From assembly GCA_026388275.1 (NCBI GenBank), contig JAPLKB010000056.1, positions 1-49,354 of the forward strand: a stretch of 49,354 nt of DNA, read 5' to 3'. Positions 17,083-43,176 of this stretch are shown here, in pieces. The position numbers and the translations under genes are program-made. Within the stretch, counting starts at the first letter, position 1. Every line of letters starts with the position of its first letter. The notes under the pieces were generated by a model, which was given only the letters and a program-made list of their open reading frames with translations, ran no database searches and had not been told where the DNA came from. This DNA is from Pseudomonadota bacterium (lineage in GTDB: Bacteria > Desulfobacterota > Syntrophorhabdia > Syntrophorhabdales > Syntrophorhabdaceae).

Positions 17083-17212
17083 GGAGGGGGCGACGTGAGC
17101 CAGATGTACATAAACGTCAGTGAGATAAATAGCTCACACGGTGAGCGAGAAGGCGCCCCTCCAACGGCTTTGCCGGTGGAGGGGCGACCGGGTACCCGCT
17201 TGCGGGTGTCCC
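17083..17212. repeat. cluster of GC-rich hairpins (REP-like element)
   Basis: Between rnr and lptF lies a GC-rich patch in AT-rich surroundings. GGAGGGGGCG (17083-17092) can pair with GGCGCCCCTCC (17152-17162). GTGAGC (17095-17100), GCTCAC (17132-17137) and GTGAGC (17141-17146) offer two mutually exclusive stems. CCCCTCCA (17156-17163) pairs with TGGAGGGG (17177-17184) around CGGCtttGCCG. GGG-ACCCGC (17190-17199) pairs with GCGGGT-CCC (17202-17212). No U-run follows, so it is not a standard terminator. It resembles an extragenic palindromic repeat. Confidence 0.6.
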
Positions 17213-38011: not shown

Positions 38012-39969
<1,958 letters not shown>

Positions 39970-39976
39970 AAAATAC

Positions 39977-40007
39977 GAGGGGACTTGCAAAAGTCCCCTC
40001 TTTTTTT
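39977..40007 (+). terminator. Rho-independent terminator after groEL
   Basis: GAGGGGACTT (39977-39986), loop GCAA, AAGTCCCCTC (39991-40000) and seven T. Confidence 0.95.
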
Positions 40008-40118
40008 ATTCTCTGCAGGGCTTGCTCACACAGCTTACTGCAAAAGCTTTTTCCGGTTTTTGTCTTTGATAAAACATCCGTATGCGGCAGTGTAGTTCAT
40101 TTTTCTTTAAAAACCGGA

Positions 40119-40334
40119 TTATTTTTCTCCGTGATACTTGAATGAGACACTGAGCCTTACACGGTAATTTGTTACTTTACCGTTTTCTACTGTCACATCC
40201 TGCTTGGTTACCTCTGCAATACGTAAATCTTCAAGTGTTTTCGCGGTAGTTTCAACGGCGATCTTTGCAGCATCTTCCCACGATTTTGGGCTTACCCCTA
40301 CTATCTCAATGATTTTATACACGCTTCCTGCCAT
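40119..40334 (-). CDS. dodecin
   Basis: The 71-residue protein reads VYKIIEIVGVSPKSWEDAAKIAVETTAKTL and ends VTNYRVRLSVSFKYHG, the dodecin pattern. Dodecins form hollow 12-mers that store FMN/FAD or related flavins, consistent with a flavin-rich metabolism (Etf, TrxB). The aromatic flavin-stacking Trp corresponds to W19. AAGGAGG precedes the ATG at 40332-40334. It is monocistronic, converging with groEL. Confidence 0.93.
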   Translation of the reverse strand: MAGSVYKIIEIVGVSPKSWEDAAKIAVETTAKTLEDLRIAEVTKQDVTVENGKVTNYRVRLSVSFKYHGEK

Positions 40335-40499
40335 ATCAACCTCCTTGATTTATTTTAACAACATTATAGAAGTAATAGCATGGCAATGTGATATGTCAAG
40401 CAGGAATTTCTATAAAATATCCAAACGTTAGGTTCATAAGGCGCGGAACACAGTAAAATAATGCTATTTCCAATCCTTTTAAACTTTACACTTTGAAAC

Positions 40500-41423
40500 T
40501 TAAGATATTTTTTCAGCTATCGGCAAAGCTTGCTGTAAGCATACCTCCCCTGCCCTGCCTTCAATGTACCCATAAACGGTTTCACATGCAGGGATGTTTT
40601 TATTATTTTTCAGCTCATTTGCAATATCTATGATTCTTTTATATGTAAAGCCAAGTTCAAGCGTTTTTTTGATAAACATTTCAAGAAGGTGAGACCACTT
40701 TTTTCCTTCCAGTTCAGTATGAACAGTAAGAATGTTCAGGCCATCTGTAAGGGCATTTAAATAAAATTTGGCAAGGGTGTTAATTTCGGTGCCTGCAATA
40801 CCTACAACCTCATCGAGGGTCGGCAGCGTAGTAGGTATTTCGAGAATCCGAAATGTTTTTTTATCCATTTCCGGAAAAAATGGCGATGTCCCCCGGGCAT
40901 TGCTTGTATAGACAAAATTATTTTCCTCAAAGAACTTTAAAACATAGGGATTTATCATCCATCCCGGTGCGGCAAAAGACTGCGGATCTTTTTTTACTAT
41001 ATCCCGGTATGTATTAAATGCTTTTTGTAATTCTTCAAAGGTCTTTTCCTTGCTGAAACATTTTATGTGATCATGCCAATAAACATGGTCATGGCCATGA
41101 ATACCCAATTCATGGCCTTCCTCCATAATTTTATGAAGGAGATATATATTTTTCCTTGCTATCTCAGGTCCGGGAAGCAACAAGCCATACAGAAGGGTTT
41201 TTATCCCGTAAGTGCTTATAACACCGACTCTGCCGGCCTTTTTTAAAAAACCTTTTCGTGTAAACACCCTTTTTACTGTCCAGCCTGTATGGTCTTTACC
41301 CATAGGAACAAAAAAACTTGCATTAATGTTATATTTTTTGAAAAGTGCCAGTAAAACAGGCACGCCCTTTTTCATACCTGCATATGTATCCACATCAACC
41401 TTTATCCCTATTGTTTTATTCAA
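40500..41423 (-). CDS. polysaccharide deacetylase, ArnD-like
   Basis: NodB-fold enzyme of 307 residues. GIKVDVDTYAGMKKGVPVLL has the catalytic/metal aspartates, and ELGIHGHDHVYWHD gives the metal-binding His pair. FAAPGWM, NARGTSPFF and IPTTLPTLDEVVG align in order with ArnD, the deformylase of the undecaprenyl-phosphate aminoarabinose pathway that modifies lipid A. No other arn gene is nearby, so the substrate may differ. It starts at TTG 41421-41423 with GGGGAG upstream. Confidence 0.85.
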   Translation of the reverse strand: MNKTIGIKVDVDTYAGMKKGVPVLLALFKKYNINASFFVPMGKDHTGWTVKRVFTRKGFLKKAGRVGVISTYGIKTLLYGLLLPGPEIARKNIYLLHKIMEEGHELGIHGHDHVYWHDHIKCFSKEKTFEELQKAFNTYRDIVKKDPQSFAAPGWMINPYVLKFFEENNFVYTSNARGTSPFFPEMDKKTFRILEIPTTLPTLDEVVGIAGTEINTLAKFYLNALTDGLNILTVHTELEGKKWSHLLEMFIKKTLELGFTYKRIIDIANELKNNKNIPACETVYGYIEGRAGEVCLQQALPIAEKIS

Positions 41424-41643
41424 ACTTTATCTCCCCTTGAGAAATTCGGCAAATTTGAACCATGCAAGACCGGATTTTATATTGGCCCTGCAAGTTTGTC
41501 GTATTTTATAGCATTAAATCTTCTCATATTATAAAATGTCAAACAACTGAAAATTTAATTATGCTATACTCCCTGTATAAATAAGGTTTCAAGAAACCTA
41601 AGTTCAACAACATGGAATAGCACTGATCCGCTAAGGAGGCTTT

Positions 41644-42051
41644 ATGAAATATTTTGTTTTTGGCGTCATAACTGTAATGTTTATCTTGCTGTCTGATATA
41701 GGTGTTTTTGCCCAGACAAAGGGCGGGGGCTGGCAGATGTATTATGCTGATGAAGAATCAGGAAACAGGTATTACTACGATAAAGGAAGTATTGAATCGC
41801 CCCAGAAAAATATTTACAAGGTATGGCAAAAAACTACCGAAACAATAAGGGCAGGGGAAGAACTGGACACTTTCAAAATGCAACTTCAGATAAATTGCCT
41901 GGTAAAAACCTACGTGGTATTGTCTTATATTGAGTATGACGGCACAGGCGAAAAAGAACTGAACGCTCAGGAATATAAAGAAAAACAACCTAAAGACAGG
42001 GTTCAGGTTTGGTCACGGATGGGAGCGCTATTCGATAACGTTTGTCCATAA
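41644..42051 (+). CDS. secreted surface-adhesin-E-like small protein
   Basis: 135 residues with a cleavable signal (to about FAQ/TKG). The mature part WQMYYADEESGNRYYYDKGSI, then KNIYKVWQKTTET and a Cys pair (one in INCLVKT, one in the final VCP), matches the small secreted adhesin-E-like domain also encoded at 48207-48626. Role unknown; periplasmic or surface. AAGGAGG is ideally placed before the ATG. Confidence 0.8.
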   Translation: MKYFVFGVITVMFILLSDIGVFAQTKGGGWQMYYADEESGNRYYYDKGSIESPQKNIYKVWQKTTETIRAGEELDTFKMQLQINCLVKTYVVLSYIEYDGTGEKELNAQEYKEKQPKDRVQVWSRMGALFDNVCP

Positions 42052-42183
42052 AAGACAGGTGTTATCCCAATTTTTAATTCGCCCACTCAAAGACTAATGC
42101 TATGGCGTTATCTCTATAAAGGAAAAAAGTACCTTCGCACATCAAGCAGAACTAAGATAAACCCATATTTTCCATTAAGATAA

Positions 42184-42448
42184 GCAACGGTGTCGGGCTG
42201 TCCCTCGCAAACACGCTCATTACGCTCCGGCGGCTTCATTCGCTCGCGTTCGGCTTCGGAACTTTTGCTTACGCTATGGTTTCATCGCGAAGGCAGTACA
42301 TGAGCGACAAAGACCAAGCTTCCATTACTGGGGCTTGCGCCGCCCCCTCCACGAACCAAGTCCGTGGAGTCTCCCCCTCTCGCTCACTTTGTGAGCTATG
42401 GGAGATGCCCCTCACGACGGTTTGCTTAAGACAACCGGACACCGTTGC
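42184..42448. mobile_element. MITE-like element with terminal inverted repeats
   Basis: GCAACGGTGTCGGGCTGTC (42184-42202) is the inverted counterpart of GACAACCGGACACCGTTGC (42430-42448), 17 of 19 positions. Pairing continues inward to GCAAAC/GTTTGC (23 of 29 overall). The 265-bp interior is GC-rich in AT-rich surroundings and has no gene, but holds hairpins such as CTCCACG/CGTGGAG and GCTCACtttGTGAGC. No target duplication is obvious. A parent transposase is not in the window. Confidence 0.7.
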
Positions 42449-42530
42449 CAGTGACATATACGGGATAAAGCAATAAGTAGAATTAATATGATTGAAGGCA
42501 AATGATATCGCTTGCACGGATAGTTTCAAA

Positions 42531-43094
42531 CTACAGATTGCGAACACCCATCGCTTCAGCCTGTGGACATTTGTATTTTGCGCTGCAGTGAAGACAGGCT
42601 ATTTTGGGAAAGATGATGAAAAATCGGAATAAAAGCAGACCGACAACAACCATAAAAATGAGCAGTAGGACAACGGAGAAATTCACGATCAATGCAGGAA
42701 TCATTGCCAGGATGAGGACAACAAGGGAGGCTATATAAAGATTATTGGGACAAAACAGGCCTACAGCCCGTCGATGGAATAACTTAGGATCTCCTTCTTT
42801 CGCAATCCTCTTTGAGAGAACATTCAAACCTGATATGCACAACGAATCCCTGACCTGGTAGTAAAGGCAATTAGGGCAAACAGTCAACGGCATTATCACA
42901 TACATTTCTACACAAGATAAAACGATATACAAAATCCCGAAAGTGTAACCCGCCCATGAAGAGAAACTATAGCCGAGTGCTATTCCGATTCCACCCATCA
43001 GAAAATGCAATATCGTGCTAACATTATAGATTAGTACGCTGGACAATGGATATCTTGTATAAAGTTTGGCTTTATAGCCTTTCTCCGATTGCAT
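42531..43094 (-). CDS. four-helix membrane protein with Cys clusters
   Basis: The ATG at 43092-43094 has AGGAAGGG upstream, giving 187 residues (frame extends to 43118). Four hydrophobic segments are grouped in two pairs (about 20-70 and 120-170). Between and after them are CPNCLYYQ and ACLHCSAKYKCPQ, which could bind metal or Fe-S on one membrane face. No family recognised. Possibly a membrane redox subunit, but no partner is nearby. Confidence 0.65.
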   Translation of the reverse strand: MQSEKGYKAKLYTRYPLSSVLIYNVSTILHFLMGGIGIALGYSFSSWAGYTFGILYIVLSCVEMYVIMPLTVCPNCLYYQVRDSLCISGLNVLSKRIAKEGDPKLFHRRAVGLFCPNNLYIASLVVLILAMIPALIVNFSVVLLLIFMVVVGLLLFRFFIIFPKIACLHCSAKYKCPQAEAMGVRNL

Positions 43095-43176
43095 TTTCCC
43101 TTCCTGGTCACCCCCCATCTTTACTTACTCGTCGCAGTACAGCCATATCTGGCCTGTCTGGGCGGAATGGCAAATT

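Follow-up and report, generated by a model that had tools for sequence, protein, structure and literature searches.

What is the folded stretch that lies between two convergent open reading frames, 41644-42051 (+) and 42531-43118 (-), in this syntrophorhabdacean contig, and what could have brought it there? The window, by which we mean the whole analysed stretch of 49,354 nucleotides, had received a first-pass annotation made from its letters alone, in which positions 42184-42448 were described as a 265-bp MITE-like element. Our analysis leads us to read the locus as a non-autonomous DNA transposon (MITE) with terminal repeats of the IS1380-family type, with a probability of about 0.8. Its components, with the evidence for each in brackets, are arranged as follows.

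42157-42161, no strand: left target-site duplication ATAAA (direct repeat of 42465-42469; placed by the aligned ends of related copies)
42162-42464, plus strand: whole element, 303 bp, CCCATATTTTCC...ACGGG (67 aligned copies, duplication statistics, second compound copy G000:C17)
42162-42178, plus strand: left terminal inverted repeat CCCATATTTTCCATTAA, an IS1380-like end (end-motif count, end matrix)
42184-42212, plus strand: inner left arm (pairs with 42420-42448, 79%; the arms covary between copies)
42213-42274, plus strand: conserved MITE core, left half of the interior (identity to the consensus about 95% in copies of several genera)
42275-42309, plus strand: module C, a short optional insert with approximate borders (alignment gap against G000:C17; similar stretches in L122 and L023)
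42310-42323, plus strand: the core resumes, AAGACCAAGCTTCC (core alignments, second compound copy)
42324-42409, plus strand: module B, a hairpin repeat that lies within the core and is also dispersed on its own (standalone or tandem copies elsewhere; another core position in genomes G007 and G016)
42347-42369, plus strand: module B hairpin 1 (covariation in 31 sequences)
42382-42396, plus strand: module B hairpin 2 (covariation in 31 sequences)
42410-42447, plus strand: right part of the MITE core (core alignments, second compound copy)
42420-42448, plus strand: inner right arm (pairs with 42184-42212; the arms covary between copies)
42448-42464, minus strand: right terminal inverted repeat, read on the minus strand as CCCGTATATGTCACTGG (end-motif count, end matrix)
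42465-42469, no strand: right target-site duplication ATAAA (direct repeat of the left ATAAA; alignment of the second compound copy)

How far does the element extend? The inverted arms reported earlier are real: their first 11 bases pair perfectly, 17 of the 19 outermost positions are paired, and the pairing goes on inward at 23 of 29 positions as had been claimed, which makes the 29-nt arms 79% complementary. As borders of the element they did not hold, and the extent of 265 bp proved too tight, since these arms are the inner part of the 303-bp element. When 67 copies with a complete core were aligned, the shared sequence extended leftwards to CCC and rightwards to GGG, and at these borders the window copy has ATAAA on either side, a perfect target duplication of 5 bp. 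An exact 5-bp direct repeat was found immediately outside 20 of 47 distinct copies with both ends scoring, a set that includes a few orthologous pairs (L061/L080, L090/L104), against about 3.1 expected by chance when left and right flanks of different copies were paired; exact flanking repeats of 3, 4 or 6-10 bp were seen in none of the 47. The target of these copies is A+T-rich, mostly NTWAW. The end motif occurs 92 times in the host genome, and the reversed control pattern 30 times. One copy, L083:532-723, has a 17-bp flanking direct repeat, itself a palindrome (ATAAAATCTGATTTTAT), where the usual length is 5 bp. There are also minimal derivatives of 42 to 56 bp (L139:1777-1827, L149:1856-1911 and L154), which consist of barely more than the two terminal repeats.

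The interior had been described as folded and free of genes, and both statements agree with our results. The 265 bases of 42184-42448 fold better than their dinucleotide shuffles, with z of -4.2 and -5.4 on the two strands and none of 200 shuffles folding as well, and one mechanical open reading frame overlaps the stretch, which contains no convincing gene. The element thus has the properties of a MITE: it is short, has no transposase gene, and shows terminal inverted repeats, a fixed 5-bp duplication and many dispersed copies.

A search for further copies, which had been proposed as a check, gave 59 matches in the host genome, and only the window copy and G000:C17 spanned nearly the whole query. 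Across the 60 genomes compared, the host included, 31 had a match: 27 of 37 in the same family and all 4 from a second family of the order, with none among three genomes of a third family of the order or among 16 elsewhere in the phylum. Where inspected, the matches of the second family covered the middle part (module B) only. A 28-base pattern from the core was found in 64 stretches of nine assemblies of the genome collection, among them Syntrophorhabdus and Syntrophorhabdaceae MAGs. Five cores of one genus (L035, L071, L078, L091, L112) lie inside a larger shared repeat (GATGTATCCCGG ... GGGATAGACTATTTTCTA).

The second compound copy deserves separate attention. At G000:C17 the element is 272 bp long, and 241 of 270 aligned bases are identical to the window copy; module B occupies the same place in both, and module C of 42275-42309 is absent from it. 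This copy has its own duplication, ATAAT/ATAAT, and the compound variant must therefore have moved as a unit.

Comparison of the 47 copies with 291 loci revealed two clean empty sites, with the target present once: L034 against L282 and L101 against L291. The pairs L076/L251 and L087/L283 have unrelated sequence where the element would be, and two compared pairs have the insertion in common. The earlier label MITE-like was thus borne out by multiple copies, target duplications and the empty sites of other copies; a single copy with flanks conserved in all relatives was not what we found. At L101:543-729 the MITE is inserted a few codons downstream of an ATG and is open in frame, and the empty site is in UBA7527; the protein downstream presumably resembles DUF523. 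Insertion in frame is not a rule, because adding 5 to the length gives a multiple of 3 in only 11 of 37 copies.

What is known of the site in the window itself? The left neighbour matches Adhesin_E (PF16747), and the right neighbour gene has no Pfam match. In G001, a genome of the same genus, window positions 39907-42055 match contig C83, and 42480-43103 match contig C29; the element is absent at both matching sites, and the next gene on C83 after the left-flank match encodes what we take to be an HSP90-like protein. As its flanks lie on separate contigs there, the element stands at a break in synteny with the sister species, and a clean empty site cannot be demonstrated for the window copy. 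The suggested check of empty sites in relatives therefore succeeded for two other copies and gave no clean counterpart here, while the proposal that the element marks the edge of an accessory region gains partial support from the split flanks. Eleven bases to the right of the element, window positions 42480-42503 hold the right half of a third repeat (ATACCAATTYGGATT...ATGATTGAAGGCRAATTGGTAT), which is more complete upstream of the same gene in G001 and recurs in the host genome; the loci noted for this repeat are L209:2376-2470, L007, L012, L018, L029, L122, L123 and L142.

If the terminal repeats define the element, how conserved is what lies between them? Among 66 distinct cores, of about 100 bases each, identity to the consensus is about 95% regardless of whether outer ends can be recognised, although the copies were selected by interior likeness and this identity is biased upwards. 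Both outer ends were recognisable in 40 of these cores, one in 12 and neither in 14. The two arms within a copy match each other more closely than do arms taken from different copies of the same genome: the observed score was 1094 against a mean of 1009.5 (sd 11.1), and the maximum in 2000 permutations was 1054. This test used 58 arm pairs from 67 records, L031 being skipped and the remaining difference being duplicates.

Module B was compared in an alignment of 31 sequences, 30 of the 36 found by regular expression plus the window copy. The stems of its two hairpins have up to 10 and 6 pairs and close loops of 3 nt, and there is a further GGGGC/GCCCC stem. Across the 31 copies the two hairpins have 88.3% of their cells paired; double changes number 53, where shuffles give 17.6, and the covariation score is 0.285, compared with 0.065 at most on sliding. 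In L342 and L343, from genomes G007 and G016, module B is inserted elsewhere in the same core, and because the position differs we conclude that it entered the core independently. A diverged hairpin repeat resembling module B is present on the minus strand of the window at 17129-17184 (75% over 56 bases), followed by the hairpin module GGGTACCCGCTTGCGGGTGTCCC. At the gathering score Rfam recognised only three tRNAs in the window, none of them near the element, and gave no match for module B; an identity with a known Rfam RNA was accordingly rejected. Likewise, module B is not a CGTC-REP, as it fails to show a single 8-9 bp stem with a 4-5 nt loop next to CGTC.

The next question concerns the enzyme that could have recognised these ends. 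An end matrix was built from 74 MITE ends only and run over whole transposase loci. Among the 45 sides of 24 PF13701 loci, its best site lay beside the open reading frame on 22, and six of the loci had such a site on both sides, whereas column-shuffled matrices reached a mean of 7.6 sides and a maximum of 14 in 300 trials, with both sides in at most four loci. The control loci of another DDE family (PF01609) gave 10 of 46 sides, and both sides in none of 25. The PF13701 set contained 25 of 39 loci (L160-L198), 14 partial or split ones having been dropped, and L194 was then skipped; the PF01609 set contained 26 of 30 (L292-L321) after removal of three PF13701 elements and one truncated locus, and here L317 was skipped. 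An earlier version of the test with domain borders had given 20 of 49 sides, with a shuffle mean of 6.6 and no shuffle of 500 reaching 20. The matrix misses the ends of most PF13701 loci remote from the host. Those PF13701 elements whose borders could be found begin with CCC or CCT, several of them in TTAA, CTAG or TTTAA.

NCBIfam model NF033539 identified the proteins of L160 and L161 as IS1380, at 250 and 212 bits against a cut-off of 180. The best MITE-like end beside a transposase was found at L160, with 23.3 bits against 0.5 for the next best on that strand, and it had no partner end before the contig ended. The first-pass annotation had called for a transposase with the same ends, and none was recovered: no transposon among the loci searched had MITE-like ends on both sides, and none had ends identical to those of the MITE. 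The end sequence expected at both ends of a matching IS1380 partner is CCCRGATWTKTCATTRG. PF13701 was detected in 105 of 297 genomes of the phylum sample and in 7 of 39 genomes of the host family, fewer than the genomes matching the element; the host genome itself had no match. The idea that the element could be mobilised in trans is thus plausible for the past, given its IS1380-type ends, and present mobility is not supported, because no PF13701 transposase was found in the host genome. There the MITE family may be stranded. Genes for Y1 transposases are common throughout the family, and many have the size of a RAYT (about 290-350 aa), but none was found in the host genome.

Could the hairpin core be a separate unit, such as a REP-like repeat, a structured RNA or a protein-binding site, which IS1380-type ends merely carry in some copies? 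Such a core would be kept by selection or would spread by a mechanism of its own. The 14 cores without recognisable ends speak for it, and because their interior is equally conserved, plain decay of a MITE explains them poorly; the arm match within copies points the same way. These observations lose weight when it is considered that copies fetched by interior likeness overstate identity and that arm covariation can arise from symmetric subfamilies. Several of the copies without ends have, by eye, decayed CCCGGAT-like ends, and many ends occur without a core in the host genome. On balance we regard a separate core as improbable, though it is the strongest of the competitors to the MITE with IS1380-type ends.

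The other candidates fare worse. A chance or ordinary intergenic palindrome, for example a terminator, would suit the position between convergent frames, and it is refuted by the multiple copies, the target duplications and the empty sites, so that we give it almost no credence. Only a little more can be said for a Tn3-derived miniature element (TIME), which would also produce 5-bp duplications. Tn3-type ends, which in a TIME are 38 bp long, begin with GGGG, but those of this element begin with CCC, and the end matrix fits IS1380 ends specifically; the shared duplication length and a similar size (262 bp, 5 or 6 bp; PMC4133298) are what favours the TIME. A REP/RAYT system, in which Y1 tyrosine transposases move hairpin repeats, might be suspected from the Y1_Tnp genes that 32 of 39 family genomes carry and from module B, which is hairpin-shaped and dispersed as REPs are. 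However, PF01797 was not found in the host genome, the core, module B and the third repeat are all absent from the 20 Y1 loci examined, and 5-bp duplications and long terminal repeats are not features of REPs; this origin, too, is very unlikely, if slightly less so than that from Tn3. Integron attC-like ends were weighed by eye and dropped.

Returning to the MITE with IS1380-type ends, its borders, duplications, many copies and nesting, together with the empty sites of other copies, were computed directly, as were the specific likeness of its ends to IS1380 ends and the second independent insertion of the compound. The mover would have been an IS1380 transposase acting in trans, and the family would now be immobile in the host genome. 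According to this scenario, an IS1380-family DDE transposase encoded elsewhere would in the past have recognised the ends, CCC...GGG, and placed the element in a target of 5 bp that is A+T-rich and of the TTWAA type, with duplication of that target. The interior is a long imperfect hairpin that has been conserved and does not derive from a transposase; into this hairpin core further dispersed repeats (modules B and C) were inserted, and the compound enlarged in this way later transposed once more as one unit. A bolder version, which we consider doubtful but somewhat better than a separate core, is that the hairpin core serves as a landing chassis for foreign modules, which module B would have entered in at least two places, IS1380-type transposase having moved the compounds. 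Module B would then be a structure-constrained mobile repeat.

The element represents a genuine MITE family, a new one of a kind already known, and its interior is mosaic. It defines such a family for the Syntrophorhabdaceae, which are anaerobic bacteria, links a MITE to IS1380 ends and is an example of how synteny breaks in their genomes can be marked by repeats. Its more unusual part is the nested, covarying module B, whose stems may be maintained by selection or generated by hairpin-driven correction, alternatives that are testable; if the covarying stems reflect selection, module B would be a new class of structured repeat travelling inside a MITE. The accessible parts of the literature searched, mainly non-subscription (PMC4133298, PMC10813416, PMC9330008, PMC3542288, PMC3733652), yielded no description of an IS1380-derived MITE and none of Syntrophorhabdaceae repeats.

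How does this element compare with known systems? With IS1380 insertion sequences (PF13701; NF033539) it shares terminal repeats starting CC(C/T)RRAT...KCA and a TTAA-like or CTAG target (TTAA at L161 and L162, CTAG at L170, TTTAA at L181). A piggyBac study treats IS1380 as an outgroup, in connection with TTAA (PMC10813416). In contrast to IS1380 elements, the MITE has no transposase, its ends are not identical to those of any IS1380 element found, and its duplication is 5 bp, whereas L161, L162 and L170 show 4 bp. Module B resembles the GTAG- and CGTC-tagged REP repeats described in PMC3733652 in being dispersed, in forming hairpins whose stems covary and in having a conserved GCGTCGCC stretch. 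It differs in comprising three stems over about 70 bp, while REPs are one unit of 20-40 bp (same source), and in not lying beside Y1 transposase genes at the 20 loci inspected here. Finally, bacterial MITEs such as Correia/CREE and TIMEs are likewise 30-300 bp long, with many copies, direct repeats, IS-like terminal repeats and mosaic derivatives (PMC4133298); from these the present family is set apart by its own end type, by an interior hairpin more conserved than the ends, and by the foreign hairpin modules nested within it.
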